Of a DNA stretch of 64,000 nucleotides, positions 22,901-50,972 are shown one piece after another. The notes beneath the pieces are model-generated. The model had not been told where the DNA came from and made no database searches. It saw only the letters and a program-made list of their open reading frames with translations. The position numbers were made by a program, and so were the translations under genes. The stretch's first letter is position 1. Each line of letters opens with the position of its first letter. The stretch comes from Leuctra nigra (lineage: Eukaryota; Arthropoda; Insecta; Plecoptera; Leuctridae): assembly GCA_934045905.1 (NCBI GenBank), contig OW203762.1, forward strand, positions 1,302,001 to 1,366,000, written 5' to 3'.

Positions 22901-23212
22901 GCAATAATTTGTATCTCATATTTTATGCGTGCAATCAGTTTCGGCCGAATATAAACCGATTTTAAAAATTAAAAAATGTCTTTCATCTACGTTCAATATG
23001 ACATTCATTTTCGAGGTCAAAAGTATCAAAATCGCAATTCCCTAAACATTTTGAAAATCCTTATCGTCTAATGAAGCGCATAAATGGACGGGTTAACTGC
23101 TCATTCTTGGCAATCGAGCGCTTGAATAGAAGCCCGTGCTCGGGAAGGCTCGGGATGGGTCGAGACGCAGATATTTGCGAATATACCTGGGTATCACGAT
23201 TCCTTGATTCGT
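22901..23212. repeat. Non-monomeric spacer in satellite, copy 2
   Basis: Almost identical to 19906-20217 (a few substitutions such as GATTTTAAAA for GATTTTGAAA). It marks a segmental duplication of roughly 3 kb within the satellite. Confidence 0.9.
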
Positions 23213-26200: not shown

Positions 26201-27027
26201 ATACAGCAATACACCCCCTTAATACAGCATAACAACGCCTAAATACAGCAATACACCGTATAAATACAGTGATACACCGCCTCAGTACAGCAATACACCG
26301 CCTAAATACAGGAATACACCGCTTTAATACAGCAATACACCAACTTATCTCAGCAATACACCCCCTAAATACAGCATAACACCGCCTAAATACAGTGATA
26401 CACCGCCTAAATACAGCAATACACCGCCTAAATACAGCAAAACACAGCCTAAATACAGCTTAACACCGTCTAAATATAGCATTACACCGCCTAAATACAG
26501 CAATACACAACCTAAATACAGCTAAACACCGCCTAAATACAGTGATACACCGCCTCAGTACAGCAATACACCGCCTAAATACAGGAATACACCGCTTTAA
26601 TACAGCAATACACTAACTTATTACAGCAATACACCCCCTAAATACAGCATAACACCGCCTAAATACAGTGATACACCGCCTAAATACAGCAATACACCGC
26701 CTAAATACAGCAATACACAGCCTAAATACAACATAACACCGCCTAAATACAGCATTACACCGCCTAAATACAGCAATATCACAACCTAAATACAGCAATA
26801 CACCGCTTAAATACAGCAATACATGGCCTAAATACAGCAATACACAACCTTAATACATCAGAACACCGCCTAAAACAGCAATACACAGCCTAAATACAGC
26901 ATTAACACCGCCTTAATACAGCAATACACCGCCTAAATACAGCAATACACCCCCTAATACAGCATAACACCGCCTAAATACAGCATTAACACCGCCTTAA
27001 TACAGCAATACACCGCCTTATACAGCA
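23213..27027. repeat. 21-bp satellite, segment 4, running into assembly gap
   Basis: Array continues to the gap. Blocks at about 21168-21640 recur at about 25313-25780 (offset near 4150 bp) and again near 25981 with an offset of 4108 bp, a 42-bp (two-monomer) difference. True array length is unknown because the assembly stops here. Confidence 0.93.
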
Positions 27028-27227
27028 NNNNNNNNNNNNNNNNNNNNNNNNNNNNNNNNNNNNNNNNNNNNNNNNNNNNNNNNNNNNNNNNNNNNNNNNN
27101 NNNNNNNNNNNNNNNNNNNNNNNNNNNNNNNNNNNNNNNNNNNNNNNNNNNNNNNNNNNNNNNNNNNNNNNNNNNNNNNNNNNNNNNNNNNNNNNNNNNN
27201 NNNNNNNNNNNNNNNNNNNNNNNNNNN
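27028..27227. other. Assembly gap, 200 N
   Basis: Exactly 200 N, probably a placeholder of unknown real size at the junction of the satellite and the Foldback-like element. Confidence 0.99.
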
Positions 27228-27240
27228 ACGTTCTGGACAG

Positions 27241-28774
27241 ACGTGCGTGAAGTTGGCACCCCCCATGAAAGCAATCGATTTGAGATTCTCCAGATATTTA
27301 GTGCTGATTTAGTGCTAATTAGTGCCGTTGATTTTAGATTTAGTGCTGCAACCCCTGGGAAGTAATTAGCGTTTATCTGTGGGGGGTGCCAACTTCACGG
27401 TCCAGCACCCCCCATGAAAGCAATCGATTTGAAATTCTCCAAATATTTAGTGCTAATTTAGTGCTAATTAGTGCCGTTAATTTGGGATTTAGTGCTGCAA
27501 CCCCTGGGAAGTAATTAGCGTTTATCTGTGGGGGGTGCCAACTTCACGGTTCAGCACCCCCCATGAAAGCAATCGATCTGAAATTCTCCAAATATTTAGT
27601 GCTGATTTAGTGCTAATTAGTGCCGTTGATTTTGGATTTAGTGCTGCAACCCCTGGGAAGTAATTAGAGTTTTTGTGTGGGGGGCGCAGCACCCCCCATG
27701 AAAGCAATCGATCTGAAATTCTCCAGATATTTAGTGCTGATTTAGTGCTAATTAGTGCCGTTGATTTTGGATTTAGTGCTGCAACCCCTGGGAAGTAATT
27801 TGCGTTTTTGTGTGGGGGGCGCAGCACCCCCCATGAAAGCAATCGATCTGAAATTCTCCAGATATTTAGTGCTGATTTAGTGCTAATTAGTGCCGTTGAT
27901 TTTGGATTTAGTGCTGCAACCCCTGGGAAGTAATTAGCGTTTGTGTGTGGGGGGCGCAGCACCCCCCATGAAAGCAATCGATCTGAAATTCTCCAGATAT
28001 TTAGTGCTGATTTAGTGCTAATTAGTGCCGTTGATTTTGGATTTAGTGCTGCAACCCCTGGGAAGTAATTAGCGTTTTTGTATGGGGGGCGCAGCACCCC
28101 CCATGAAAGCAATCGATCTGAAATTCTCCAGATATTTAGTGCTGATTTAGTTCTAATTAGTGCCGTTAATTTGGGATTTAGTGCTGCAACCCCTGGGAAG
28201 TAATTAGCGTTTATCTGTGGGGTGTGCCAACTTCACGGTCCAGCACCCCCCATGAAAGCAATCGATCTGAAATTCTCCAGATATCTAGTGCTGATTTAGT
28301 GCTAATTAGTGCCGTTGATTTTGGATTTAGTGCTGCAACCCCTGGGAAGTAATTAGCGTTTTTGTATGGGGGGCGCAGCACCCCCCATGAAAGCAATCGA
28401 TCTGAAATTCTCCAGATATTTAGTGCTGATTGAGTGCTAATTAGTAACGTTTATTTTTGTTTAAGATTTTATTTTGTGTTATCTCTTCTTGAACCTGAGT
28501 TAATTTTTCGATCACTTTCTATTTCAGTTGCGTTGTGTTCACACTCATTGCGATAATTATTGGAATGTTCGATTATGAGTGAGTCTCCATTGTGAACCTG
28601 TTAAAAATAAATAGTGGACTGTTGTACAATGTCCCAACTCCCAATAATGTTAGCGCTAACATTATTTATCGGTGGTTACAGCCTTAGCTACAGGCAATGA
28701 AACACATCTATTTTATATAAGCACCTTACGGTAGGTACTACAAACATTGTGAGTTTGTAATATGTTTATTATAG
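27241..28774 (-). repeat. Left inverted arm of the giant Foldback-like element
   Basis: About nine tandem units of roughly 135 bp (some variant) each carry GGGGTGC/GCACCCC blocks and CCCCTGGGAAGTAATTAGCG. They are followed at 28441-28774 by a unique segment containing the palindrome AATGTTAGCGCTAACATT. The same material appears inverted at 49022-50972. Frames of 45-residue repeats on the minus strand reflect the 135-bp period and are not credible genes. Confidence 0.9.
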
Positions 28775-30935
28775 CATAACAAAGGATCAACGCTTTATAT
28801 GCTCTACTGGTATACATGCAGGCATGTAGTTTATTTTCTTTGTCCACAAAGAAACATACCTATTACATATTGCATATTGCAATATGCTTTACATATTGAA
28901 GAATGAAGAACTCTTTAATTTTACAAAACTGAACAAAATGGTTGACCATGATCGCTTTATGGTTAAGAATTGATAAATATTATGAAACAGCTGCTTAAAT
29001 TAAATTGCATATCTTCCACTTGGCTGTGGGTACAATTTGCGATAAGTACCCATTCACATCCTAATAAATATTAATGCACACCAAAACAAACTAACTTCTA
29101 AATCAAACAAAATCAAGTTTATCATTTATTTCTTTGTTATTTTAACAAATAAAATTGTTGGTTTTACCAGTTTTTGCACAATTTGCTAAAAACCTATATA
29201 TAATGTCAAATGAAGCCGACTACCATCGTCATGTAATAATTGTGTCAGCGTATCCGTCTACATAGTAATACATTTAAGAAAATTATGAATTCTTTATTAA
29301 CAAAGAGTTCGTTTGAATTGACATAACACGAAAATTTATTTGACCAAAAACATGGTGAGAAACAAGGAAATTTGTGTAAAACATTTGACAATTATTGCTG
29401 CGAGCCTTTAGAGTCAAATAGGTACCGTTTTTTGAAATCGAGCTTATAATTATTATATGCATTTAATTTTCTTAGAATTATGCAATTAACATAAAAATTT
29501 TGAGAGTATAACAAACTACGCCAGAGATCTCAGTTGATTCTAGCATGTATGTTTACCTGTGTATTAAAAAATTGTATTTGAGTATGTGATTCTTCTCCAA
29601 GTATTGAGACATGTTTAAATGACTGAGAAATTGATTAAAGCATTATCTTTATTTTGTGTTTAGTGCAAATGACAATTCCAATTGTTACAAACAACTACTA
29701 AATATTTGTCAACGAAAAACATAATTAGTCTGTTCGACCAAGCAAATCTGAAAATTACAATATATTTCTTAATTAATAAAGACTACTATTTCCGATGGAT
29801 AAATTCATTCTTAAAATTTACAAATAATATAAGGTAAAAACAACAATACGGAAGACAATGTTGCCTGTGTTAAAACTTAAATTGACCTGAAATTTCTTAG
29901 CAATGGCAAACAATTACAATATTACAGCGTGCATTCAATTTAGGTAAATGATATCTGTCAGTATGAAAGTAGATTCTAAAGAATTCCATGCTATAAGTTA
30001 AAGGGCGACAACAGTCAGAATATGAAAAATTACCATCATTTCATCTTGTCATGTTAATAGATTATTGATAAGTGCAAATGTGCCATCGGTATTGTAATAA
30101 TTAATAATAATTATTGACTGTATTGCATATTAGTTCACATGAGATTTGTCTAATGGTATCAACATTCTGTGAACAGACTGTTATAGATATTTAATGTGTT
30201 GTGTTATGATGATGCATGAAATTGTTTAGTTTATGGCTACTTTATTACTATTTCAAGTGTCACCCAGTTACGTAGTGTAAACAAACTAGGCTCAGTTACA
30301 GAGAGTGGGCGGGAGATCTGCAGGAATGTACCTTCTGTACTAAAAATATGGGACCTTCTTGGTGTATAAAACAGTAGCGATTTGTTTTTATATTTATTTG
30401 CAGCTAAACGGTTCAATTCACAGAAAATTTTAAAAGAGATAAAATGAAGAAAACACTCCTATTTATATGTAGCAGAGCTTCTTTTATTTCTATCTATTTT
30501 GGTTCTCCTACGTTCCCAATAGACATTTTGCGTCCAGCTTATTCCTTATGGGACTAAAATTCTTTGCATACTTTCGATTAAAATCCCGTTTTTCGATTTG
30601 CTGCTCTCACTATCACAACCGGATTGGTACATTCTCATATGTCTTACAGATATTAATAGTTTGATGTGTAATTATGGTAAAATTTTAATTTCTGACCGTT
30701 GCCCCCCTTTAAAGTCGACTCAGAAAATATTTATGTTGACATTGTTATTGTAAGTAATTAAAAATTAAAATATATCCTTTATTTGCAAGAAAGCTAATGC
30801 ACTTCCACTAACTCTTCCATGAGAGTTTATAATAGAAAATTTAAAAAACAAAACAATTCAACATCTTAATAGACTTTCTTTGAAAGTATGTAAAAGTATT
30901 CGTAAGCACATAAGCCATATAAAAAGACGCTATTA
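28775..30935. other. Internal non-coding region of the giant element
   Basis: AT-rich sequence between the left arm and the 3' end of the transposase gene. No exon, repeat or inverted structure was recognised, apart from a probable polyadenylation signal near 30780. It may contain the transposase 3' UTR and internal element sequence. Confidence 0.5.
30778..30783 (-). terminator. Probable polyadenylation signal of transposase gene
   Basis: AATAAA on the minus strand, about 155 bp downstream of the transposase stop codon, in AT-rich sequence. Spacing is reasonable, but the hexamer is common by chance in such sequence. Confidence 0.35.
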
Positions 30936-33900
30936 TTAATAGATGGCGTACGCAATAAGGTGAATACATGTATTAGTATCACGCGACACCGATAATACTT
31001 TGTCTTGCAAATCGTCATAAAGTTCCCATGAACCATCCAAACGCCTGCAAAAAGCTCTGTAGTGTCCATTGCCCACATTTCGCACTGGGGGAATGAATGC
31101 AGCACAACCTAGGAGCTTAAAGCTTTTGCCAAGGATGTGAATTTGTGGTGGTATTTCCGCCAACTTGCACTGTAGAGGCCGCTCGACCCCAATCTCTGCA
31201 TTTGAATACTCGGAGCTGATGGAAGTCTGAGTAGATCCAACTACCTGTATAAAAAAAATATTATTGAGCGAGCGTAGCGAGCGTCACCACGGTACTCTTA
31301 TGGCACTTTCTCTGTGTGTGTTTTTTTTTTTTTTTTTTTTTTTGTCGGCAGTGCCGAGGTCAAACCGCACAACCAATCGATCTGAAATTTTGCACACATA
31401 CTAACGTAATCTATGCGGTCCCTGGGATCGTTTTTGAACGGGCTCCCGTGATTGGTTCAAATTTAAAAAAAATTATCTTTCGATTGGTTGCTTTGATCAA
31501 TTTGAAATTTAGCAAAAACATTGCAACCAACATTGTACCCAATCATAAAATGTTTCAGCCAAATCCTCTTATTGGTTCAAATTTAAAACCATTTTTCATG
31601 TGATTTTTGACATTTAAACTAGGACAGATTGACCGATCAACTTAAAACTTCGCGTGGTCATTGGTACCAACATTTTAGGTATTTTTGCCAATTTTCAGTC
31701 TAATCTGTCGTTATTTTCAAAAGTTTTGTCATTTTAAGGTCATTTTATTCCATAATCTTGAAAAATGTATACTAAATGGTCATCCCTGCCTTCTTTAAGC
31801 TTCTGTTCCAAGGCAAGGCCTGTAGAGCAGCCAAGCTATCCACAATGTACAGTAAAATGGTAAAATGAAAGCATTTTTGAGCTAGCGCATAAAATCGGAT
31901 GCAGTACGAAGGCCAAATCCTCTAATTGGTTTAAGTTTAAATAATATCTTCTGATTGGTCGACAATCAAAATGTTCACATTAAGTTCAAATTTTGCATGG
32001 TGATCAAGACCAACTTAATATTAAATTTTACATATTGTAAGCCCAATCAGTCAAGTATTATTGTAATTTTACGAGTTTAGTATGGGATGTCACAAGAGAT
32101 TTCTGGAGAAAGTATGTAGGAAAGTCACGACACAATGGATCTGTTATTCATCCAGAGTATTATAGAGATTGAAAAATTGCAGAGAAAATCGTCTTGTGCC
32201 GTGTCGTGTATCGTGACTATGGGGATGTTGCATGTTCTGTGCTCGCTCATCAACGCGTTACACTGAGCGTTTTCCTAGTAGATAGATAGTATTTGAATAG
32301 TGTTTCAGCTCCATGCATTTAACATTGTACAGAGTGAAGTGAATATGATTTTGAAAGGCGAGTTTGCCTTTATTAGACCGACGCGCTGTGGCCCAGCTGA
32401 CGAACTAAGAAATTTGATTCAAATATCTCATTCAAAATGACAGTTGGCGCAACTTATTGCGAATAAATATTTCCAACTATAATAGCTATGGTTTGCATCA
32501 AAAAGGGGTAAAGGAGGTATTAAATACTCGAATCTATGTAGTTCTCACATATGCCGCCAGGTTCAGGTCAGTCAAACGAAGATGACCTCATTATTCTCAC
32601 CTCAAAAGTGTTACACGTTTTTGCGGAGAGCTGAAACACTATTCGAGAAAATAAGGAACACGACTGACCTCTGGTGGATTCTTTGGTTCTATCCATAAGG
32701 GGGATAATGGAGGATATAAAGGGTTTATTTATGTAAATAAATTATATAAAATTAGCTTTAGTTGTTTTTTATGGCTGAAAAAGTAAACTTGTAACTAAAT
32801 CTAAATTTAATTTGTTTCTCCTTTTTCACTGCCCTATGGAAACACGAACAATAAAATAAAAAAGTGCATGTAAAAAGTTTCCTGCCAGAAGTGGCTCCAT
32901 CACGTATCGCTTATTTGTTCGAAGTGTGTTTTCAATTCACTTTGGTGCGTCCACCGACCGACGTAGATGGCGTGGGGCTATCACCAACCATTATAATCAC
33001 AACATGGGCGTCCGCAGGGAGGGGCAAGGGGGGGCGTTTGCCCCCCCTCCCCCTCTGGATGTCACGAAAACATACACATTTTCTGGAGTTTTACATATAG
33101 TTTCATTTTGTTACCAAAAAAACTAAAGAAAATTGATTTCAAAGTGTCAAAAAACCAAAAAATTCCCTGCGGGGCAGGTGTGAACATGTCTCCCACCACC
33201 CCAAAGTGCAATATTTAAAAAATATTGTATATTTTAACAAAATACACCTCACAACGTCTCAAATTTGATTTCAAAGTGTCCAAAAAACAAAAAACGCCCT
33301 GCGGGGCAGGGTGCCCCCCTTAACCCGTAAAATATTGTTTTCCTGGCCTTGTCCCCCACCTGGAAGAAATCCTGCGGACGCCCATGAATTACAATAATTG
33401 AATGTATGTTCTCGGGAGATTGTTAGGGTAACTATTGTGATAAAATATATTGCTTACCTCAATGAGAATATTGTCGCCAGCAGAAGTGAAGATGGTGCGC
33501 TCACCGGAACACAAATCATTCTGCCTCGAAATTGCTTCATCTCTAAGACGGTATTCATTTGGTACTGATTCATTATTGACGGGTCTTAAGCATCGTGCAG
33601 TAGGGTTTGCCATGGCCCCCATTACAGCCATCTCCAAACCAGCAATACCTAGTATAAAATCAAAGTGTCTAATTTGTATACATACCTACATAAATAATAG
33701 AGCAATAAAGCGAGAGTCTGCACCTACAGACCGGACCAACCCCTATGCCATGTTACACCCCTATAAATACCTATTTCAGAATAGGCAGCGTAAATTTGAA
33801 ATCATATTAATAGCAAATTATAAAATTGTAGTGTCATTAATTAAAATGTGTTGAACTATACTTAATGTGCATAGTTCTATAGAATATCTGTATACCTACC

Positions 33901-36900
33901 AAGAGAGAAGAAACATCGAACCCTAATTATTTACGTACTTACTTTCTTACTTACTTACTTAATTACTTACTTACGTACTTCTTATACTTATTTACTTAAA
34001 AATTTAAGATTACAAAAAACAAAAATGACAATTTTCTCATACCATTCGAGCAGGACGTGAATAACATTGATATGAGAAAATTGTCACGCCCTCAGATATA
34101 CCAATTGTTTATGTGATATTGGGCATATATTTTTAGATAGTATGTACTACATATGTACTTCATAATAATTTACCAATTTTCAGCGAACTATGTAATTGAA
34201 ATTTGAGGATGATTTTGTTGTAAAACTTGATCTATCAAAGAGTAATGCACTACACCTAGATCACGTGAAACACCATTCGGTTCTGTTTATTTATTGAAAA
34301 ACTTCTGTGTCACATGCTTTGACAATGTTAATTTTCACACAGTTTTGCATTTACACGAAGCAACTTTCTGTCACCAAACTTAAAACGTGTTCTAATTTCC
34401 TTCAAGAAATGTGACTAAAACTGTGTCAAGACCGTGACACAGAAGTTGTTCAATAGATGTGACCGTGTAAATCGAGCTTTCCACTTTCCAGGATAATCAG
34501 CAACTCATACACAGCAATACACCGAATTGCACAATATTGGCTGGCTTTCAAAGCGTCTATATAGTGGATTGAATGGACTATCTATTGATCTTGGCAACAT
34601 TTAAATCGGACTCATTTTTAGTGCCGAATGTTTTTTTCTAGTGTAGATAGGTACTTTTTGACTTATGTTTACACGTAATAGTCATTAGCAGTTTTAGTAG
34701 GTTTCATTTACCGGTCTCGTTGAGTTCATCGGAGTTTACTCGAGCCACAGAGAACTTCAAGTCAATATTTGGAGCTGGACAGTATGGGGACGAACAAGTC
34801 GACCTTTCCAAAATGCTGGGGCTCATGTCCAGGAAGCGTTGCGCCATCACTGTGACAGTGGTGTGACAATCACAACTGATTATGTTGGCTGGAATTGTTT
34901 TTCTTGGAAAAACTGGAAGTAGAAGGTTTGCCCTTAGCTTGTAAACCATGCGCATGTGTCCAGATCCCCTAAAAAGGAATATTATTATTAGTATTATTAA
35001 TAATTTTAGTATATTATGTAACCTTAATTAAATAGTTTATAATGTTTTCCTACTTTTTGACGAGCAGAATGAGCAGTTCAAGACATCCTCTCTTATTGAT
35101 GGCAATATCCTCTATCATTTGGCGATAGGCCGTGTGGTCGGTATAACCGACCGCTAAAATCTGAATTAGAGTGTCGAAGGCACACGTATTAGTAAGGGAA
35201 ACATTTTCCTTGCCAACTTTAATTAGTTTTAGCGCATGGTTGTTCCCATTTTTCATGAGACCTATCTTAACCCTATTTCGAAGATCGGCCTCCGATGTGG
35301 TGTTCCATTCAGGAGCAGGATTAAGATAAAACGATCTTCTTCTCTTTTTGGGAGGAATCGCAAGACCTCGCCAGTTTTCAAACTCATTCATTTCGTTAGC
35401 ATATGAATCTTGGATGGCCGTTGCTACATGCGGTGTGAGCACAGGAGGTCGCGAGGACTGATTACTCTCGTAGCAGTCAAGACACAGACGGAGCTCACCA
35501 TACCCTTCCTCCGCTCCAATGGGAACAGAGCAGCCGAATGCGTGGACGTTCTTCCCACAGTCCCTACATTTATGAGCACCTCCAGGGGCATCTCCTCTGG
35601 CACAGGCAGGACATGGATTTCTCGTGGCTGGTGCAGGTGTTGTCAACGGTGTGAGCACAGGAGGTCGCGAGGACTGATTACTCTCGTAGCAGTCAAGACA
35701 CAGACGGAGCTCACCATACCCTTCCTCCGCTCCAATGGGAACAGAGCAGCCGAATGCGTGGACGTTCTTCCCACAGTCCCTACATTTATGAGCACCTCCA
35801 GGGGCATCTCCTCTGGCACAGGCAGGACATGGATTTCTCGTGGCTGGTGCAGGTGTTGTCAACGGTGTGAGCACAGGAGGTCGCGAGGACTGATTACTCT
35901 CGTAGCAGTCAAGACACAGACGGAGCTCACCATACCCTTCCTCCGCTCCAATGGGAACAGAGCAGCCGAATGCGTGGACGTTCTTCCCACAGTCCCTACA
36001 TTTATGAGCACCTCCAGGGGCATCTCCTCTGGCACAGGCAGGACATGGATTTCTCGTGGCTGGTGCAGGTGTTGTCAACGGTGTGAGCACAGGAGGTCGC
36101 GAGGACTGATTACTCTCGTAGCAGTCAAGACACAGACGGAGCTCACCATACCCTTCCTCCGCTCCAATGGGAACAGAGCAGCCGAATGCGTGGACGCTCT
36201 TCCCACAGTCCCTACATTTATGAGCACCTCCAGGGGCATCTCCTCTGGCACAGGCAGGACATGGATTTCTCGTGGCTGGTGCAGGTGATGTCAACGGTGT
36301 GAGCAATGAGGATTCTGAAATATTCTGAAATACTGGTGCGTTACCAGACCCAACCCAATATTGTAGGCCTGACGCTAATTTCATTGTTCCATCCACAACC
36401 TGTAGGTGCTTGTTTACAAAGTCATCCACCCGCATTGGAAGCCCTGTAATCAATCTGTTTTTCAATTCATTAAGATGGCTCTCGACGGAGGCACTACTGG
36501 CGGTAAGATTGCCTCTCTCGAATATGGGAACCATGATAGCAGACCATAGAGGCAGGTACTGAGCTAGTTTGCATATATGGTCTACAAATTTGGGAAGCTT
36601 GAAAATATTGTCCCGGTCGCCGTCATCTGTCTTCGCGTGTTCCTCGCTCTCTGTCCTGATCGAGGTCACCCAATCTATCATGGACTGAGAGGTGTGCGTC
36701 GTTGAGTCATCTTCCGCAATCAGTTGTGGAGTTTCTGGGTCTTCGACATTATCATCCTCCACCGTATCTGTCAGGAGAGTTTGCATCGCTTCCCCTGTTG
36801 AGTACAACTGTTTTAGAATCTTCTTAAAAGATTCACAAGGTACTGCCATACCCGTACTGACGGAAAATCCCTCAGTTTCGGTGAGAGCAACAACGATCAA

Positions 36901-38475
36901 GTACATCATAATAGTTCCAGCATCCTTTAGGCTCTTTGAAAGAACAAGTTGTGCGATTCCACGGACAAAAAACTCTTTGATCTTCCTCTCCTTTCCCTGA
37001 AAGCAAGACCACCTGGTGACAGCTTTCATCAAGTGGGCTATGTCAATGCGGACAAACGAATGTGGCAATTTCTGTCGATCAATGTCGTGAGTAATGTGTA
37101 GGAAGCATTCGTGAATATACGTCTTTGTATCTGGCATTTTGGCAAAGGCTCTAACCAATGCACTAATTAATGCCAGGGAGAAGTCGCATACCACCTCAGA
37201 TGGAATTGATCCGCCTAATCGGAGCCACTCTGTCAGCCAATAAGCAATTGCATTTGCATTATGCCTCTCCGACAACATTTGCAAAACAGGAATTTGTCCT
37301 TCCTTTTCTCCAGGAATAGTTACGACTCCAATATAGAGAAATATGTGTCGGGAACGAGATTTGTCCAGTCGCTGCAATTTACTAACCACCCCGCCAGTAG
37401 CATCAATACACATTTTACTGGCGGAACATGATTTTGAATAGGCTGAATAAACTCGAAGTTGTTCTGACGTCCAGTAGTGCAGGAAAAACGGGATGTGACC
37501 AATCTCTACTATGCTGCTATTATACTGATGAGCCAGGTGTAACATTTCGAGCGAATCAAAGATACTATCGGAAAGCCGTTCTTCGCCTCTGACGTCAGAT
37601 GCTGCCCTTCGTAGTACACCGAGACTGGGCACATGGCTAGGCTCTACGTCGAATAGGTCCATGTCGGTTCTAGCGAGCTCTTTTCGGTACAGGGATGCTG
37701 ATTTCCCATATGATATTAAATTGGTTGTAGCGATCGCCCTAGCATTGCCGGCAAGTGGTCTTTTGACCCTAATGTTGTGTTCAACTGAGGCTGGATCGTA
37801 ATCCTGAACAGAAACATTAAATATAACTTGTTCACTTTCCTCTGCTGGTTTCTCAAAACAAGTCACATGCATGCTTGCTTTGCATTGCTTACACATTGCT
37901 TTTATGCGGATGTAATTAGTCAATGAACTGGGGTGTACATGCCCTGATTTAAAGATCCATGTGCATCGGTATTTCTTTTTCTTCCATACAGCTTTGTTGA
38001 TTACATCAGTCCATATTCCCGATTTCAAAACTTTATATCGCCTTTTTCGCACCATTCTGCCATCTGTGCGTTTATAGGCCGTTGTTGATGGTTTTATAAG
38101 TTGCCATTTATTCGCCGAAAGCGAAATTGTGAAACTATCCGTATTCGACGAAGCATCCTCGCTGTCGCTGCAATGGTCTTCCTCTGTTGAAGACGAGCTG
38201 CCGTCTGATAGTCCACCTGTATCCTCTTCTGGAACTTCCACAACTGGTGACATGGGGAAAAGAATATGCCTTCGCTTTCGTACAAACTCGTATAACGCCT
38301 TAGCCGTCATCTCCAGCATGTAATTTTCCAGTATAGTATTCCAGGTGGGATGAGTTGGTGGCACAATACAGCTTTCCGATTCACTTTTAATTTCCTGTAG
38401 ATGACTTTGGACAATGGCCATAAGCTTGTCAGGTGGTACTGCAGGTGGCCTGCCTCTATACGACGGCTTTCCCAT
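30936..38475 (-). CDS. MULE/NOF-type transposase with PHD-like fingers and a USP-like protease domain
   Basis: Exons on the minus strand: 35054-38475, 34712-34968, 33458-33648, 30936-31244. GT-AG introns and phases join into an unbroken 1392-aa frame. Start chosen at MGKPSYRGRPP (38475), because the frame upstream enters a Helitron-like insertion. Visible parts: acidic Ser-rich stretch about 85-115; MULE-type DDE motifs with D358 (IDATG), D431 (VVCDFSLALISALV), C457-x2-H460 and E665 (SASVESHLNELK); four 72-residue PHD-like fingers about 733-1020 (C-x2-C-x11-C-x2-C-x4-H-x3-C-x15-C-x2-C); basic PPKKRRR; then a USP-like fold with Cys box NTCAFDTLIQ (C1098), a CxC and CSSPYC finger in exon 2, and His box GHYRAF (H1351) with LYDD (D1367). 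Likely a nuclear DNA transposase; protease activity is inferred from conserved residues only. Confidence 0.8.
31264..32278 (+). mobile_element. Helitron-like element (copy c) in transposase intron 3
   Basis: 5' end ATTA|TTGAGCGAGCGTAGCGAG and 3' end CGCTCATCAACGCGTTACAC then TGAGCGTTTTCCTAG|T. It starts about 20 bp outside the exon 4 acceptor, leaving the splice site intact. Internal text has repeated phrases such as ATTGGTTCAAATTTAAA. No coding sequence recognised. Confidence 0.75.
33003..33386. mobile_element. TIR element with CATGGGCGTCCGCAGG ends
   Basis: The left end CATGGGCGTCCGCAGGGA is inverted at the right end TCCTGCGGACGCCCATG. Inside are two direct repeats of about 46 bp (33133-33180 and 33266-33312) containing TTGATTTCAAAGTGTC and CCCTGCGGGGCAGG. 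No coding capacity and no clear target duplication. It lies in transposase intron 3, upstream of Helitron-like copy c in gene order. Confidence 0.75.
35434..36302 (-). repeat. 216-bp intragenic tandem repeat encoding PHD-like fingers, 4 copies
   Basis: Four units of exactly 216 bp (72 codons) within exon 1 of the transposase. They are almost identical at the DNA level; differences include GACGTTC versus GACGCTC and GGTGTTG versus GGTGATG. Each unit encodes one eight-ligand C4HC3-like finger plus a Pro/Thr linker. The near-absence of synonymous change means very recent amplification or ongoing homogenisation. An antisense open frame over the array (about 35410-36288) is a by-product. Confidence 0.95.
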
Positions 38476-38498
38476 CCTAATAAACACCAAACATTGTA

Positions 38499-40154: not shown

Positions 40155-40573
40155 TTTAAACTTAACATAATATTAACAGTAAAAATAAAAATGTTCCGAT
40201 ATGTACGGCGTACGGTAGCATGCGCGGGAACAGAGTGCGTAGCGGCCCTAGTGAGAGCAAATGGCAGCGTGGAACCCAAATGCGATTCTACAAAAGCTGA
40301 GTAGATTAATTTTAAAATTCTAGCAGACAAAACAGATTTTATGTGAAACCGGCAAACGAGCAATGATGTAATTTGGAAGCTAAACTATTAATAGACGTCT
40401 TAAGGAGAAGAATGTATCAATTGTTAAGCCCATAAACAATTCAACCTCCTAAATCACATCCGAAAAATATACGTATCAATGTATCAAATGTAAATCAAAT
40501 GTATGTAAACAATCACAACTAACAGCCCGTGCAACTTACGTTTGAACTCTCACCAGACCGTCACCGTCAGTAT

Positions 40574-40672
40574 ACGGTCGGTGACAAGCAAAGATGAACC
40601 CTGTTTAGCATTGCCACGTAGTATAGGCCGTCCCATGCTAGCGCGGGTTCATCTTTGCCTGTCACCGACCGT
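40574..40672. repeat. Interrupted palindrome, about 28-bp arms
   Basis: ACGGTCGGTGACAAGCAAAG through GATGAACCC at 40574-40601 is inverted at 40645-40672 with one or two differences. It is a possible remnant MITE or hairpin of unknown role. Confidence 0.7.
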
Positions 40673-40750
40673 AGTTTCGTTAGGCCGAGAAACACTGTAT
40701 ACGGAGTCTGTCCTCGCAATGTACTTTTTCCGGCCTAACAGAATTACTGA

Positions 40751-41890
40751 AGGTGCGTGAACCTGGCCTCCCCCCCCCCCCCCCCCCTCCCCCCGAAAGA
40801 TATCGAGATAAGATTATCCAGATAATTAGGGCCAGAATTTTGAATCAGATCAGAATTTTGAATTCAGAATTAGTGCCACTTTACCTGGGAAGTTATACAC
40901 AAAAATTACAGGAGGGTGCTAAGTTCACGCAGCACCCCCACAAAAGATAGAGGTTTGAAACTCTCCAAATATTGAGTGCTCAATTAGTGCCAATTAGTGT
41001 CGTTGAATTCAGAATAAGTGCCACTACTTCTGGGAAGTTATTAGCGAATATCTCTGTGGGGTGCCCCCCTACAACTTCTTCATCAGTTAAGTTAGAGGTG
41101 TGAAATTCTCCAAATATTTAATGCTCAATTAGTGCCAATTAGAGCCGCTGAATTCAGAATTAGTACCACTATCCTTGGGAACTTATTAACAAAAAGCACT
41201 GGGGGATGCCCCCCTACAACTTCTTCCCCAGTTAAGTTAGAGGTTTGAAATTCTCTAAATAGTTAGTGCTCAAGTGCCAATTAGTGCCGCTCAATTCAGA
41301 ATTAGTGCAACTAGCAAAGGTCGATATACACTTAAAAATATTCTTAAAATGTCAATGTTCGTAGACATTTATTTTTGAAATTGTAACACATCTATGGATT
41401 TGGATGAAAATTTTGAAATAAATTGAGACTGTAAAAAATTTGAGGATTGACATTCGCGAGTAACTTCTCAGGGTTAGTGGCACTAATTCTGAATTCAGTG
41501 GCACTAATTGGCACTAATTGGCACGGCACTAAATATTTTGAGAGTTTCAAACCTCAACTTAACTAGGGAAGAATTTGTAAGGGGGCATCCCCCAGTGATT
41601 TTTGTTAATAAGTTCCCATGGGTATTGGCACTAATTATGAATTCAACGGCACTAATTGGCACTAATTGAGCACTCAATATTTGGAGAGTTTCAAATCTTT
41701 ATCTTTTGTGGGGGGTGTTGCGTGAACTTATCACCCCCCCCCCCCCCCCCCAGTGTTTTTTTGTGTGAATAACTTCCCAGGGGTAGTGGCACTAATTCTG
41801 AATTCGACGGCACTAATTGGCACTAATTGAGCACTTAATATTTGGAGAATACTCGATATCTTTCGTGGGTGGTGCCAGGTTCACGCACCT
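40751..41890. mobile_element. Non-autonomous Foldback element with perfect 9-bp target duplication
   Basis: Begins AGGTGCGTGAACCTGGC and ends GCCAGGTTCACGCACCT, flanked by identical 9-bp repeats AATTACTGA at 40742-40750 and 41891-41899. Both arms (to about 41320 and from about 41455) are made of diverged tandem units of roughly 135 bp with TTAGTGCC/GGCACTAA blocks, poly-C tracts and CTGGGAAGTTATT. They are related to, but clearly older than, the units of the giant element. The roughly 130-bp spacer has no coding sequence. Its ends match the giant element's ends in layout (GTGCGTGAA), so the giant element's transposase could plausibly mobilise it. Confidence 0.9.
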
Positions 41891-42849
41891 AATTACTGAC
41901 GGTGTCTTGCGAGAGTTCATACGTACGTTGAACAGACTGTATATGACACAATAATGTTACTGGATTGAACTCATTAAATAATTTTTTTCGGGGCTGTGAC
42001 CCCGCATCCCCAGTATGCTAGGGGCCCATCCCCCAGACCCCTCGTGCAAATTATTCTCGTAACAAAACACCATTCCCCCACGGACCAACTTCCAATTCGA
42101 TCACTGTGCTTACTAACAACTCATTGTCGTGAGTACACCATTGAAATCCGACTGAAGTATACGCTGAGCCCGTTCCACACTTTTCTCAGTATAATAACTA
42201 CAGTCTAAAGATTAAAGAATCTTTGCTTTCAACGGTATCATCCGCGTATATATAAATTTTACAATATTGCAATGTGCGGCATACCGTGGCAAGTTTTTCA
42301 CATTTATAAGAGATAAGGGATTTGCTCTAATTTAGGGTAATTCCATGTCAAATTAATTGAGAATTTATAAGGTCCCTCTCCGATTTTGGCAAAACTGGGC
42401 ACAATTGTTCACAATCCTAAAGAAACACATGGCTGACTCTCAGCGATTTTTCTAAATTACATCGTTTCGTATATACCCATCCATTTGGATGCGCCATCAA
42501 CAATTAATTGGCACTTGACACATTGACACATTCATACAATAATTTAAGTTAATATTTATATATTATTCCAAGTCCAACTCCTAAATCGATAAATCGAATA
42601 ATATGTTGACGAATATTAGATAACATAAAATTTCATTAGTCCTTTTTCGGGATTTTGTGGTACTTTTTTAATAGTTTTAAGGTACTATTTGCCTGTTTTT
42701 TTGGACGTTAAAGGTCATAAACATCCTAGCTCTACTGATGATACACCATCCATATATGTTGATAAAGAAAATCAGCTCCAGTGGCAGTGGAACTATGTGG
42801 AGCCATTTCGATACAATCATTTCTGACAGCTCTATAAAAAGGCGACTAT

Positions 42850-42975
42850 AAGTATATACTGATTGGGCTGAAAATGTGCAAAATAAGTGAAAATGGTAGT
42901 CATGAATGGCCATGCAAAATTTGAACTTGATCTGACTATTTTTAGCCAATCGGTCAGGAATTTATTTTTAAGTTG
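42850..42975. mobile_element. Helitron-like fragment
   Basis: Text such as GGCCATGCAAAATTTGAACTTGATC matches (in reverse complement) the interior of copy b (GATCAAGTTCAAATTTTGCATGG near 17480). No termini remain. Confidence 0.45.
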
Positions 42976-43000
42976 ACTGAGAGTCTGGGAGCCGTTGCAG

Positions 43001-43242
43001 TTAATAGGTGTCGGTTCTTCTGTGGAAGCTCCATTTGTTGTTTGTGGTTTGGCCCTAAAAAGGGCCGTTTGCCACGACGTTTCGGCGGATTCGACCTCCG
43101 AATTCGGAGGTCGAACCATTCGACCTCCGACACCTGAGGATGGCGGAACCATCTCCGCCGAAACGTCGTGGCAAACGGCCCTTTTTAGGGCCAAACCACA
43201 AACAACAAATGGAGCTTCCACAGAAGAACCGACACCTATTAA
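43001..43242. mobile_element. 242-bp palindromic element bounded by TTAA
   Basis: TTAATAGGTGTCGGTTCTTC at the left is exactly inverted at the right edge, with arms of about 85 bp. The loop carries two further GTCGAA/TTCGAC stems around GACCTCCGAATTCGGAGGTC. A TTAA boundary could be a piggyBac-type duplication or part of the palindrome. The palindrome produces matching open frames on both strands; these are not genes. Confidence 0.85.
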
Positions 43243-43479
43243 TTTATTTTTAAGCAATCAACGGATTCGCTAAAATGCTAAAAATTTCGATTTCATAGGT
43301 CAAACTGTGTGACCTGTAGCGTTCTAGACCAAAAAAGAGTAAGAAACGGAGATCTGTGCCAAAAGTAGAAGCTTATTCTAAAATATGGCTATTTCATTTC
43401 AAACAACACAATAAAGTAGCTATTACACCTCATGTGCTAAGCACAACCTCATGTGCTTAGAAACTTGTTTTTTGAATGT

Positions 43480-43935
43480 CGGCGGTGCGTACCGCCCAAG
43501 ATCTTTTGCAAATATCTTGAAAAGTAAGAGAGCACTAATTCTGGAACTAAGGGGGATCGAAAGCACTAATTACGCACTAATTGATAGTTTTTTTTTGTCT
43601 GGGGCTTAACGTCGCACTGTTCTGCAGCGAGGCTAATGGCGACGGATGAATGATTATGATAATGATTGGAAGATGATGATGAAGAGTAGGTAAGGATGGA
43701 AGGTGGGAAGGATCGGTCGTGGCCTATTAGTAGGGTACCTTCCCAGAATTTGCCTGTCGACTGAGGGAAAACCACGAAAAAACCCCAGTCAGGAACGACG
43801 GCCGCGGGAATCGAACCGGGGCCTCCGGAATACAAGTTCAGAGCGTTAACCACTCACCCATGTTCCGTAATTGATAGTTGATAGTGCATATTCAATAATT
43901 AATGCGTCACTGGGCGGTGCCAACTTCACGGAGCT
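43480..43935. mobile_element. Degenerate Foldback unit interrupted by a SINE
   Basis: GCACTAATT blocks left of the SINE (43525-43589) and GGCGGTGCCAACTTCACGG to its right (43913-43931) match the Foldback unit text. This is probably a remnant solo unit into which the SINE inserted. Confidence 0.5.
43590..43867 (-). mobile_element. tRNA-derived SINE with 12-bp target duplication
   Basis: On the minus strand it begins near TGGGTGAGTGGTTAACGC (A-box-like), then GGTTCGATTCC (B box), then a body with ACTGGGGTTTTTTCGTGG and CAGGCAAATTCTGGGAAGG. It ends CCCCAGAC followed by an A-run. Perfect 12-bp repeats TAATTGATAGTT flank it (43578-43589 and 43868-43879), the mark of LINE-mediated retroposition. 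The body resembles widespread insect SINEs; family from memory. Confidence 0.9.
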
Positions 43936-45018
43936 CAATAACGTGAGTTCAAATTTCCAGCTCGACCAGAGAAAATGTGTGACCAGTGTCACGTCACACC
44001 AACAACCGAAAAACCGACACTGAAACGCTACCTAATACATGTTAAAAGAATGATTGAATTATGGTTTATTTACCAACTTAGAACATTACAATTTGATACA
44101 ATCTGTATACAACTTGATACAATTATTGTATCCATCAATCTTAATGACTAATAATTATACGCAGCTATGAATTATTTTGTGCGAGTGTCTCGCCGTACGA
44201 CTTGGCTGGCGTGGAGCGCCCGCTGTTAATATGTAACCAAAATTGAGTTTTCTTACCTGGCCAAGAATTCGTCTTGCAGATGAGTATGGAGGTTTCAAAA
44301 CACTGCACACAAATTGATCTTCATCACTTGAAGTCAGAATATGAAATGACTGGAATCTTAGTGTAAACCAATGCAAACGTGCCACTTTGGCGGGCTTTTG
44401 GTTTCATGACACATACGTAGTCAGCAAGTCATAATAACGTTGCTGTCTAGACGACACTTCCTTTGCGCCCTGTTACGCAAGACAGCAAATCGTGTGTAGA
44501 GTCGAGATTACAATATTTAGCACAGCAAACCAAAAGGGTATGATTACTCACAATAGTGCTGTAGTAGGTACATCATGGTTGCATCATGATGTACCTAAAG
44601 TCACAGAGCTTCGGCAGCATCGAAATATGGGCGTAAATTACGATGTAATATGAGATAAAGGTAGTGTGTAAAACGCTCAATTTGAGCACAGGGCGATTAT
44701 TGAAATTTTTGAAATTTTAGAAATGTGACAACAAAGGGGAAGTTTAAAAATTGGAATTTCATATCCCCCCCCCCCCCCTCCCTCGGTCTTTAGCATCTCA
44801 AGTGAATTAGATCCCATTAAAGCACTCGGCATAATATTATATTAATACGGGTTCCCATCCGTACCCGTTTTGAAGGGACATTACATTCCCGTCTTTCGAA
44901 GTAGTGCCTCCCGGTGTCCCCATAACAATTTAAAAAAACTGAAAAGACCTGTATCTGTCCCGTTGTTGTATAATTGTAAACATGAGAGATCATGTTACAT
45001 TTTTCGTAAATATTTAAC

Positions 45019-45271
45019 AATTGAAGAGCAAGGGAGCAAGGAACAAGGATGAATGTGACACATTTTTCAAAACGCGTTTTTTTTTTGCTTTTAAAGGATG
45101 AATGAATATCAATATATCCGTAAGCTGGCGCAATCTAAGTTCGAATTATTGAACCTTTCCCCTCTAAAATAATAATAGTAATCTCTGGTTAACATTGGTG
45201 GCATATCTGGTGTTGGTTGGTTATTTAAGAAATGTCACATTCAGCCTTGTTCCGGGGAGCTCTTCAATTGT
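45019..45271. repeat. Inverted repeat, about 45-bp arms
   Basis: AATTGAAGAGCAAGGGAGCA ... GAATGTGACA (45019-45060) is inverted at 45231-45270 (GTCACATTCAGCCTTGTTCC ... CTTCAATT) with small indels. Possible MITE remnant. Confidence 0.55.
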
Positions 45272-45814
45272 CAAAAATACCATACAAGGCAATTATCCCT
45301 CATCTTTTTCAAACGTAACCTGCAATAAGTTCATACAACATTTAACATAAGATAATAAATAATTAGTACTTCAATGTTACAAAACTACCAGTGTACCTTG
45401 CCCGACAACCCTTCATATAATCATAAGATCTACATGTAAAAAATCTGATAGGGACTTGTTGAGAGGGACCTAATTCAGGAAGAAGAAAACATTTCATAAG
45501 TTGTCAAAAGTGAGTAGAAAATTGTTCCCGGGGCTAGGGTCCCAGAACCCACATATGTTTAGGGTCCCTTAGGGTCCCGCACAGCCCCACTTGGTTGTCG
45601 CACGAGATTTTACCTTCTGGAATAGTTTGTCCCGACAAGTTTTTCACATTTAGATTTTGGGAGCCTTTCCTTACTTCAAATTTATAATAGGAAATATGAA
45701 AAATTATCAGTTGGAGTATCTATTGGTTTAAAAAGGGCCAACATGTTAATGGAAAAATAATAGTTAAAATGTATCGATGCTTGGCGAATCATTTTTTTTT
45801 AATTTTTGAAAGAA

Positions 45815-46055
45815 TTGGATGGTAAGATGAAGGGAGGAAATTGTAGAGGAAGAATCAAGAATGCGATAATTGAACCATGAGCACGATAGGACATCGGAAG
45901 GTTTTCATTCATTAATAGAACAATAAGGGATTGGAATGAATTGGGTAAAGTGACAGAAGATTGGATGGAAACGGATGGAAAATATGTAAGAAGTGAATTA
46001 ACGAACCGAGGAGCAAGACAAGAACGGGAAGAGATGGATGTTGTTATTATTTAGT
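45815..46055 (+). pseudogene. Possible LINE reverse-transcriptase 3' tail remnant
   Basis: A short decayed frame reads IRDWNELGKVTEDWME and ends in an in-frame stop near 46053. The IRDWNxL pattern is typical of the end of many non-LTR reverse transcriptases. Upstream frames are broken by stops, and no polymerase motif is visible. Weak identification. Confidence 0.3.
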
Positions 46056-46139
46056 TGTAGTATTTAGTGTTTAGTGTTTATACACTGATTGTTTACACTG
46101 AACTAAAGCAGCACTAAATAAAGAATCAAAGGTACCAAT

Positions 46140-49021
46140 TAGCACTAAATCAGCACTAAATATCTGGAGAATTTCAGATCGATTGCTTTCATGGAGGACT
46201 GGACCGTGAAGTTGGCACCCCCCACAGATAAACGCTAATTACTTCCCAGGGGTTGCAGCACTAAATCCCAAAGAACGGTAATAATCAGCACTAGATATCT
46301 GGAGAATTTCAAATCAATTGCTTTCATAGGGGGTGCTGGACCGTGAAGTTGGCACCCCCCACAGATAAACGCTAATTACTTCCCAGGGGTTGCAGCACTA
46401 AATCCCAAAGAACGGTAATAATTAGCACTAAATATCTGGAGAATTTCAAATCAATTGCTTTCATAGGGGGTGCTGGACCGTGAAGTTGGCACCCCCCGCA
46501 GATAAACGCTAATTACTTCCCAGGGGTTGCAGCACTAAATCCCAAAGAACGGTAATAATTAGCACTAAATATCTGGAGAATTTCAAATCAATTGCTTTCA
46601 TAGGGGGTGCTGGACCGTGAAGTTGGCACCCCCCACAGATAAACGCTAATTACTTCCCAGGGGTTGCAGCACTAAATCCCAAAGAACGGTAATAATTAGC
46701 ACTAAATATCTGGAGAATTTCAAATCAATTGCTTTCATAGGGGGTGCTGGACCGTGAAGTTGGCACCCCCCACAGATAAACGCTAATTACTTCCCAGGGG
46801 TTGCAGCACTAAATCCCAAAGAACGGTAATAATTAGCACTAAATATCTGGAGAATTTCAAATCAATTGCTTTCATAGGGGGTGCTGGACCGTGAAGTTGG
46901 CACCCCCCACAGATAAACGCTAATTACTTCCCAGGGGTTGCAGCACTAAATCCCAAAGAACGGTAATAATTAGCACTAAATATCTGGAGAATTTCAAATC
47001 AATTGCTTTCATAGGGGGTGCTGGACCGTGAAGTTGGCACCCCCCACAGATAAACGCTAATTACTTCCCAGGGGTTGCAGCACTAAATCCCAAAGAACGG
47101 TAATAATCAGCACTAGATATCTGGAGAATTTCAAATCAATTGCTTTCATAGGGGGTGCTGGACCGTGAAGTTGGCACCCCCCGCAGATAAACGCTAATTA
47201 CTTCCCAGGGGTTGCAGCACTAAATCCCAAAGAACGGTAATAATTAGCACTAAATATCTGGAGAATTTCAAATCAATTGCTTTCATAGGGGGTGCTGGAC
47301 CGTGAAGTTGGCACCCCCCGCAGAAAAACGCTAATTACTTCCCAGGGGTTGCAGCACTAAATCCCAAAGAACGGTAATAATTAGCACTAAATATCTGGAG
47401 AATTTCAAATCAATTGCTTTCATAGGGGGTGCTGGACCGTGAAGTTGGCACCCCCCACAGATAAACGCTAATTACTTCCCAGGGGTTGCAGCACTAAATC
47501 CCAAAGAACGGTAATAATTAGCACTAAATATCTGGAGAATTTCAAATCAATTGCTTTCATAGGGGGTGCTGGACCGTGAAGTTGGCACCCCCCACAGATA
47601 AACGCTAATTACTTCCCAGGGGTTGCAGCACTAAATCCCAAAGAACGGTAATAATCAGCACTAGATATCTGGAGAATTTCAAATCAATTGCTTTCATAGG
47701 GGGTGCTGGACCGTGAAGTTGGCACCCCCCACAGATAAACGCTAATTACTTCCCAGGGGTTGCAGCACTAAATCCCAAAGAACGGTAATAATTAGCACTA
47801 AATATCTGGAGAATTTCAAATCAATTGCTTTCATAGGGGGTGCTGGACCGTGAAGTTGGCACCCCCCACAGATAAACGCTAATTACTTCCCAGGGGTTGC
47901 AGCACTAAATCCCAAAGAACGGTAATAATTAGCACTAAATATCTGGAGAATTTCAAATCAATTGCTTTCATAGGGGGTGCTGGACCGTGAAGTTGGCACC
48001 CCCCACAGATAAACGCTAATTACTTCCCAGGGGTTGCAGCACTAAATCCCAAAGAACGGTAATAATTAGCACTAAATATCTGGAGAATTTCAAATCAATT
48101 GCTTTCATAGGGGGTGCTGGACCGTGAAGTTGGCACCCCCCACAAATAAACGCTAATTACTTCCCAGGGGTTGCAGCACTAAATCCCAAAGAACGGTAAT
48201 AATTAGCACTAAATATCTGGAGAATTTCAAATCAATTGCTTTCATAGGGGGTGCTGGACCGTGAAGTTGGCACCCCCCGCAGATAAACGCTAATTACTTC
48301 CCAGGGGTTGCAGCACTAAATCCCAAAGAACGGTAATAATTAGCACTAAATATCTGGAGAATTTCAAATCAATTGCTTTCATAGGGGGTGCTGGACCGTG
48401 AAGTTGGCACCCCCCACAGATAAACGCTAATTACTTCCCAGGGGTTGCAGCACTAAATCCCAAAGAACGGTAATAATTAGCACTAAATATCTGGAGAATT
48501 TCAAATCAATTGCTTTCATAGGGGGTGCTGGACCGTGAAGTTGGCACCCCCCGCAGATAAACGCTAATTACTTCCCAGGGGTTGCAGCACTAAATCCCAA
48601 AGAACGGTAATAATTAGCACTAAATATCTGGAGAATTTCAAATCAATTGCTTTCATAGGGGGTGCTGGACCGTGAAGTTGGCACCCCCCGCAGATAAACG
48701 CTAATTACTTCCCAGGGGTTGCAGCACTAAATCCCAAAGAACGGTAATAATTAGCACTAAATATCTGGAGAATTTCAAATCAATTGCTTTCATAGGGGGT
48801 GCTGGACCGTGAAGTTGGCACCCCCCACAGATAAACGCTAATTACTTCCCAGGGGTTGCAGCACTAAATCCCAAAGAACGGTAATAATTAGCACTAAATA
48901 TCTGGAGAATTTCAAATCAATTGCTTTCATAGGGGGTGCTGGACCGTGAAGTTGGCACCCCCCACAGATAAACGCTAATTACTTCACAGGGGTTGCAGCA
49001 CTGAATCCCAAATTAACGGCA
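46140..49021 (+). repeat. 137-bp tandem array, about 21 copies, inside right arm
   Basis: The unit includes TTCATAGGGGGTGCTGGACC, GTGAAGTTGGCACCCCCC and CAGATAAACGCTAATTACTT and recurs every 137 bp with very few differences (AGATAAAC versus AAATAAAC, CACAG versus CGCAG, TAATCAGCACTAG versus TAATTAGCACTAA). It is a specialised derivative of the outer 135-bp arm unit. It occurs only at the right side, directly internal to the matched inverted segment. Confidence 0.95.
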
Positions 49022-50972
49022 CTATAATAAACATATTACAAACTCACAATGTTTGTAGTACCTACCGTAAGGTGCTTATATAAAATAGATGTGTTTCATT
49101 GCCTGTAGCTAAGGCTGTAACCACCGATAAATAATGTTAGCGCTAACATTATTGGGAGTTGGGACATTGTACAACAGTCCACTATTTATTTTTAACAGGT
49201 TCACAATGGAGACTCACTCATAATCGAACATTCCAATAATTATCGCAATGAGTGTGAACACAACGCAACTGAAATAGAAAGTGATCGAAAAATTAACTCA
49301 GGTTCAAGAAGAGATAACACAAAATAAAATCTTAAACAAAAATAAACGTTACTAATTAGCACTCAATTAGCACTAAATATCTGGAGAATTTCAGATCGAT
49401 TGCTTTCATGGGGGGTGCTGCGCCCCCCATACAAAAACGCTAATTACTTCCCAGGGGTTGCAGCACTAAATCCAAAATCAACGGCACTAATTAGCACTAA
49501 ATCAGCACTAGATATCTGGAGAATTTCAGATCGATTGCTTTCATGGGGGGGCTGGACAGTGAAGTTGGCACCCCCCACAGATAAACGCTAATTACTTCCC
49601 AGGGGTTGCAGCACTAAATCCCAAATTAACGGCACTAATTAGAACTAAATCAGCACTAAATATCTGGAGAATTTCAGATCGATTGCTTTCATGGGGGGTG
49701 CTGCGCCCCCCATACAAAAACGCTAATTACTTCCCAGGGGTTGCAGCACTAAATCCAAAATCAACGGCACTAATTAGCACTAAATCAGCACTAGATATCT
49801 GGAGAATTTCAGATCGATTGCTTTCATGGGGGGGCTGGACCGTGAAGTTGGCACCCCCCACAGATAAACGCTAATTACTTCCCAGGGGTTGCAGCACTAA
49901 ATCCCAAATTAACGGCACTAATTAGAACTAAATCAGCACTAAATATCTGGAGAATTTCAGATCGATTGCTTTCATGGGGGGTGCTGCGCCCCCCATACAA
50001 AAACGCTAATTACTTCCCAGGGGTTGCAGCACTAAATTCAAAATCAACGGCACTAATTAGCACTAAATCAGCACTAAATATCTGGAGAATTTCAGATCGA
50101 TTGCTTTCATGGGGGGTGCTGCGCCCCCCACACACAAACGCTAATTACTTCCCAGGGGTTGCAGCACTAAATCCAAAATCAACGGCACTAATTAGCACTA
50201 AATCAGCACTAAATATCTGGAGAATTTCAGATCGATTGCTTTCATGGGGGGTGCTGCGCCCCCCACACAAAAACTCAAATTACTTCCCAGGGGTTGCAGC
50301 ACTAAATCCAAAATCAACGGCACTAATTAGCACTAAATCAGCACTAAATATCTGGAGAATTTCAGATCGATTGCTTTCATGGGGGGTGCTGCGCCCCCCA
50401 CACAAAAACTCTAATTACTTCCCAGGGGTTGCAGCACTAAATCCAAAATCAACGGCACTAATTAGCACTAAATCAGCACTAAATATTTGGAGAATTTCAG
50501 ATCGATTGCTTTCATGGGGGGTGCTGAACCGTGAAGTTGGCACCCCCCACAGATAAACGCTAATTACTTCCCAGGGGTTGCAGCACTAAATCCCAAATTA
50601 ACGGCACTAATTAGCACTAAATTAGCACTAAATATTTGGAGAATTTCAAATCGATTGCTTTCATGGGGGGTGCTGCGCCCCCCACACAAAAACACGTATT
50701 ACTTCCCAGGGGTTGCAGCACTAAATCCAAAATCAACGGCACTAATTAGCACTAAATCAGCACTAAATATCTGGAGAATTTCAGATCGATTGCTTTCATG
50801 GGGGGTGCTGGACCGTGAAGTTGGCACCCCCCACAGATAAACGCTAATTACTTCCCAGGGGTTGCAGCACTATATCTAAAATCAACGGCACTAATTAGCA
50901 CTAAATCAGCACTAAATATCTGGAGAATCTCAAATCGATTGCTTTCATGGGGGGTGCCAACTTCACGCACGT
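49022..50972 (+). repeat. Right inverted arm of the giant Foldback-like element
   Basis: 49022-49352 is the inverted copy of 28441-28774 with no mismatch seen by eye. From there to 50972 run about 12 units of 135 bp, matching the left array inverted. Units contain a GC-rich near-palindrome, GGGGGGTGCTGCGCCCCCC. Frames of 45-residue repeats are period artefacts. Confidence 0.92.

Follow-up and report, generated by a model that had tools for sequence, protein, structure and literature searches.

Structure of the element

We analysed a 64,000-nt stretch of the Leuctra nigra (Plecoptera) genome, referred to here as the window (assembly GCA_934045905.1, contig OW203762.1, positions 1,302,001 to 1,366,000 of the forward strand; C2:1302001-1366000 in the genome search below). 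It contains a 23.7-kb element with Foldback arms at positions 27241-50972 (window coordinates unless a contig is named). The terminal repeat ACGTGCGTGAAGTTGGC starts at 27241 and its complement finishes at 50972; the inverted termini are identical over 17 bp. The left arm (27241-28774, plus strand) consists of this terminal repeat, eight full units of 149 or 135 bp plus a partial one, and then a 309-bp unique inner segment (28466-28774). The right outer arm (49022-50972, minus strand) begins with the unique inner segment (49022-49330), followed by a partial unit and 11 full units of 149, 148 or 135 bp out to the terminal repeat. With the partial innermost unit counted, the left arm holds 9 units and the right arm 12. 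The two copies of the unique inner segment are inverted without a mismatch in 309 bp. Collinear arm blocks showed 4 mismatches over 848 bp (27403-28250 and 49828-50675) and 1 mismatch over 529 bp (28246-28774 and 49022-49550). Inverted matches of such length exclude chance, and the large element has the long inverted termini built of tandem repeats that characterize Foldback elements. Thus, the exact inverted termini, the tandem-unit arms and the mismatch-free inner segment described in an initial annotation of this DNA were all borne out. A perfect 24-bp palindrome (AATAATGTTAGCGCTAACATTATT) was noticed by eye at 28643-28666 inside the unique inner segment and is mirrored in the right arm.

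The right arm alone is bordered on its inner side by a minisatellite (46148-49012, minus strand), in which a unit of 137 bp is repeated about 21 times; each unit contains a copy of the terminal core motif. With up to one mismatch allowed, the inner right array contains 21 occurrences of the core motif GTGAAGTTGGCACCCCCC; the left arm has 4, the right outer arm 5 and the interior a single one. The gene inside the element reads toward the left end, and the 137-bp array thus lies at the end upstream of the gene.

Two insertions are nested in the element. One is a second Foldback-like element of 1140 bp (40751-41890, plus strand) with the termini AGGTGCGTGAACCTGGC and a 9-bp duplication, AATTACTGA, at 40742-40750 and 41891-41899. 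The other is a dispersed repeat (43590-43867, minus strand), which by eye resembles a short interspersed nuclear element (SINE) and is flanked by the 12-bp duplication TAATTGATAGTT.

The transposase gene and its protein

The gene lies on the minus strand and comprises four exons with GT-AG introns, as predicted from the sequence. The frame reads through and gives exactly 1392 codons, in agreement with the four-exon gene proposed initially. Exon 1 (35054-38475) encodes a transposase domain of the Mutator-like element (MULE) DDE type (D358, D431, E665 and DxxH at 478-481), zinc fingers and the Cys box of a C-terminal domain. Exon 2 (34712-34968) and exon 3 (33458-33648) were placed by the splice model and protein homology, and exon 4 (30936-31244) carries the His box GHYRAFCRRLDGSWELYDD of the C-terminal domain and the stop codon. 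An in-frame 216-bp tandem repeat within exon 1 (35431-36305) encodes four SCAND3-like zinc fingers (Pfam SCAND3 zinc finger, E 2.5e-38).

Protein searches returned one relative with a single sequence, two with two sequences and more with a three-sequence profile; the relatives with a species name were insect proteins. NOF was not among the matches, NOF itself not having been directly compared. A scan of viral_contigs gave 79 stretches that fit the pattern, none of which was confirmed as a relative. Homology to an ant relative (26% identity, E 8.7e-32) begins at the end of exon 1 and runs on through exon 4, which supports the splice model. Another relative, P0001, ends near the end of exon 1. 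The RNase H-like DDE core of MULE and IS256-like transposases is present, and structure comparison indicated that the core folds like the ISCth4, P-element and Hermes transposases. A first structure model, built from two sequences, reached a predicted local distance difference test score (pLDDT) of 29 and was discarded.

The Cys box (NTCAFD) and the His box resemble those of ubiquitin-specific proteases, and we tentatively describe the C-terminal domain, from these sequence features, as ubiquitin-protease-like. Matches to ubiquitin proteases were weak (USP15, E 1.6). The Pfam UCH model gave E 0.0028 in the ant relative and E 0.13 in a second lineage of the transposase, both short of the cut-off, and Pfam had no ubiquitin-protease match in the 1392-residue protein itself. 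A six-sequence profile, four sequences of which lack the His-box end, gave two matches in the PDB (a 'novel protein', E 0.49, and a zinc finger protein, E 0.77) and no protease.

Copies in the genome

We searched the 536-Mb assembly (144 contigs) with a 2001-bp piece of exon 1, and all eight candidates were scored. Nine matches were obtained: six at a rounded identity of 100%, on C4, C2 (this copy), C1, C5, C7 and C63, and three rows at 70-73% from two diverged places. The C63 match covers 1884 of the 2001 bases, up to the contig end. Each of the six near-identical genes is linked to one or both such arms, which bears out the claim that two arms and a gene form one insertion. No near-identical gene was found without Foldback arms; the two diverged relatives lacked such arms within the few kb read around them.

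Both ends are assembled in this copy, C4 and C7, the last ending at gaps on both sides (left flank 15 bp, right flank none). In C5 and C1c (C1, 57.2 Mb) the right end is assembled and the left side is gapped; C63 preserves the left end, its contig stopping within the gene. Additional sequence is present in C4 (about 4.5 kb, in intron 2) and in C7 (about 0.7 and 1.3 kb, both outside the gene). C1 holds a further copy and a further left end. The copy, C1a (3.34 Mb), is 11.6 kb long and has both ends. The left end, C1b (50.84 Mb), halts at element base 28940 next to a gap; the first base of C1c, also next to a gap, is 28941, 6.4 Mb away (C1:50840224 and C1:57218347; 200-N gaps). We read C1b and C1c as one contig cut by the scaffolder, a real rearrangement being the alternative.

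The assembled ends of the large copies all stop exactly at the terminal repeat, and an all-against-all comparison of nine 200-bp flanks revealed no similarity at E 0.001. With unrelated flanks and exact ends, the copies are dispersed and do not belong to a single duplicated block. Divergence from this copy was 0.011% in C63, 0.040% in C4, 0.041% in C1c, 0.11% in C5, 0.14% in C1a and 0.34% in C7, counted as substitutions only over 4.4-17.4 kb of aligned unique interior, with high-scoring segment pairs below 97% identity or 300 bp excluded; C1b gave none. The coding sequences of C4 and C1c do not differ from that of this copy at any of 4179 nt, and the three copies encode an identical protein. 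C63 has one difference within the part covered. C5 and C7 carry a fifth zinc-finger unit; where compared, with exon 1 covered over its first 3045 nt in one alignment, they differ from this copy at 5 and 6 nt. The near-identical copies elsewhere in the genome suggest that the element moved recently as a single unit. The youth originally deduced from arm identity therefore stands, now on the basis of an inter-copy divergence of 0.01-0.34%; arm identity was given up as its basis.

The arrays varied in length. The inner right array has 20 units with the exact motif here and in C1a, 4 in C4, C5 and C1c, and 6 in C7. Between copies, arms of the same side are alike, although in some copies the two sides share the outermost unit and one other. 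An origin of the C4 left end from a short element was considered and rejected: its first 149 bases differ at 4 positions from one short element, at 5-6 from four others and at 6 from this copy. Both junctions of the nested Foldback are present in all five copies that reach that region, this one counted (1140 bp long in three, 1135 bp in C5 and 1000 bp in C7), and both junctions of the SINE-like repeat in six of six. The proposed enlargement by nested insertions was thereby substantiated; since every covering copy has both, the enlarged form is the form that multiplied.

A second lineage of the transposase, 46-49% identical, was found on C7 (L055, L056 and L059, about 23.989-23.995 Mb), with one SCAND3-like finger visible. 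Its matching stretches are interrupted near residue 1140 and again at residue 1291, like those of this gene, but exons 2 and 3 match as a single stretch. A decayed gene relative (L054, C6:31189673-31190266) contains in-frame stops, and arms of this type were not seen in the 3.5-kb stretches on either side of it.

Short family members and target-site duplications

Short members of the family were examined in 20 stretches picked by eye among the matches listed (388 matches; 40 of 607 candidates scored). Both ends were found in 18 of them, with at most two mismatches in the terminus. The 9-bp flanks were identical in 14 of these 18, matched at 8/9 in one, at 6/9 in two and at 4/9 in one; about 0.00007 cases of a perfect 9-bp duplication are expected by chance. 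One short member of 2021 bp is 94.6% self-complementary over its full length and has no unique centre. In another (L038, C10:24259342-24260211), the 9-bp flanks GGTGTCAGC and GCTGACACC are mutual reverse complements, as if the element lay inside a palindrome.

Comparison with known systems

In our searches of the open-access literature, the element was not found described. By the published descriptions compared, not by sequence, the closest kind is Rehavkus, a minisatellite-bearing MULE relative, which fits best. Rehavkus elements occur in arthropod and annelid hosts and have 9-bp duplications, terminal inverted repeats (TIRs) of 26-400 bp, one open reading frame (ORF), a PHD finger, a minisatellite before the 3' TIR and one 'in Cterm' (PMC6446971). 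Rehavkus-1_TC of Tribolium is 9.5 kb long, and its inverted termini contain 164-bp units, mostly five and eight in a row (PMC10218199); Repbase has moved Rehavkus into MuDR (PMC4455052). The present element shares this plan in its minisatellite and in the tandem units of its inverted termini; 9-bp duplications flank 14 of 18 short members but none of the three large copies with both flanks, where the assembly is doubtful. The 137-bp array just inside the right arm matches the minisatellite before the 3' TIR if this end counts as 3', and the 216-bp in-frame repeat of four or five units fits the minisatellite 'in Cterm' if the coding end is meant, the table wording being brief. In contrast, the element measures 23.7 kb against 9.5 kb in Rehavkus-1_TC; its arms, with 8 and 11 full units and a separate 137-bp inner array, are longer than TIRs of 26-400 bp; and its gene has four exons, not one ORF. 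A PHD finger was matched only weakly (E 0.018 and 0.057, short of the Pfam cut-off), SCAND3-like fingers being present instead. The tentative ubiquitin-protease-like domain goes unmentioned for Rehavkus in the excerpts of PMC6446971 and PMC10218199. Among 4,268 arthropod genomes surveyed with Rehavkus only as an outgroup, the longest complete MULE measured 9,972 bp (PMC13359780). The present element exceeds twice the length of both that MULE and Rehavkus-1_TC, in line with its initial description as unusually large.

Other Foldback systems share some of these features. Tm1 of root-knot nematodes (Mutator/Foldback) has composite repeat-bearing TIRs, mostly 9-bp duplications, and a copy with a MULE transposase beside non-autonomous copies (PMC3169594), as does the family described here; however, its transposase is of the Phantom type, with 496 residues and FLYWCH, and its arm motif is about 14 bp. 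Tetris and Galileo of Drosophila likewise have Foldback arms with internal tandem repeats and array expansion, but no transposase or autonomous copy was found for Tetris (PMC4079207). Additional binding sites are reported for the arms of Galileo (PMC4079207); we infer that the core-motif repeats here may be transposase binding sites.

The Drosophila Foldback with NOF also has tandem-repeat arms around a MULE-type protein; its unit length and sequence are unlike those found here. The Rehavkus group is what we take to be the MULE-NOF of RepeatMasker, so the initial idea of FB-NOF was close. The label of FB-NOF-like held for a Foldback unit with its own MULE-type transposase; with Rehavkus as the described group that fits best, membership in FB-NOF itself is a tentative reading.

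Mechanism and alternative explanations

Taken together, we consider it highly probable that this is a 23.7-kb Rehavkus-like (MULE) DNA transposon with Foldback arms that moves by its own spliced-gene DDE transposase. The spliced gene would produce the transposase, which would bind the repeated terminal motif, found singly at each tip and in many copies within the arms. The protein would then pair the ends, cut the element out and paste it with a 9-bp stagger, leaving a 9-bp target duplication, and probably also moves, in trans, the short palindromic elements with matching ends. Acquisition of the second Foldback and the SINE-like repeat would have preceded the spread of the unit to its present sites, and the arm arrays and zinc-finger repeats would have changed number between copies later. 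From the sequences we infer that the element may be autonomous and currently active.

Several observations weigh against this interpretation. Its chief weakness is that none of the three large copies with both flanks (this one, C1a and C4) has a 9-bp duplication, the best match being 6/9 in C1a; here, 27232-27240 reads TCTGGACAG and 50973-50981 reads GTCAGCGAA. Swapping flanks across copies gave 9/9 in none of 30 left-right pairings. The duplications expected at ends of this type were found in the short members and at the nested element and are missing from the large copies with both flanks. Either the assembler joined wrong flanks, as the gaps at many large copies suggest, or the arms recombined. 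The large copies are poorly resolved by the assembly. A 200-N scaffold gap (27028-27227) ends 13 bp outside the left end of this copy, and C1a was assembled without the gene and has a gap at the gene position, so that loss and misassembly are indistinguishable there. Pfam matched no MULE, Mutator or other transposase model in the protein, which could be a divergent member, and the P-element and Hermes structures also fit the core fold, less strongly.

Alternatively, the element could be a passenger whose own protein is inactive, a related transposase such as that of the second lineage moving both it and the short elements. A second family gene is indeed present at C7:23.99 Mb, and a short element near it has related ends. 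However, the catalytic residues of the present protein are intact, its frame is identical in three copies, and arms of this type are absent from the sequence read around the second lineage, whose element ends lie beyond it; we regard a passenger as rather unlikely. Spread by recombination between Foldback arms (ectopic exchange or segmental duplication), with the gene carried along and no transposase involved, would account for the missing duplications, for the differing arm and array lengths and for the element split at base 28940|28941, the two halves of which lie at a distance of 6.4 Mb. Against it, the assembled large-copy ends stop exactly at the terminal repeat between unrelated flanks, and the split and the several ends at N gaps point to misassembly of near-identical 24-kb repeats, which makes this explanation distinctly improbable. 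That two unrelated Foldback insertions flank a host gene of MULE origin by chance agrees with the lack of a duplication at the outer ends of this copy, but it is hardly credible and already refuted by the same gene and arms at six places with unrelated flanks where compared, unless those copies are artefacts.

Beyond the Rehavkus-like transposon itself, we put forward, as a tentative and rather doubtful proposal, a two-part system. In it, an intact, recently spread Rehavkus-type element of about 24 kb would also drive the short palindromic Foldbacks; its transposase would combine a deubiquitinase-like C-terminal domain with an in-frame zinc-finger array that changes copy number, and the motif array of the right arm would serve as a fast-changing docking platform.

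Other repeats

Close to the second lineage lies a third Foldback-like family (L060:1769-2634; C7:23997568-23998433) with the termini AGGTGCGTGAAGTTGAAC, arms of 10-bp repeats and the 9-bp duplication AAAGTTACA on both sides. In the window, a 21-bp satellite of nearly 9 kb (18134-27027) abuts the scaffold gap, with a smaller block at 15840-16462. Further tandem arrays are located at 2753-3971 (105-bp units) and 55253-56136 (118-bp units).

Significance

Foldback elements rearrange chromosomes, and the enzyme that moves them is often unknown; for Tetris, no autonomous copy was found (PMC4079207). Here, one genome combines a complete candidate for such an enzyme, intact copies of it and short elements whose ends match, which makes the question directly testable. 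In addition, array lengths changed among copies whose interiors are well under 1% divergent, suggesting a route from transposon arm to satellite DNA.

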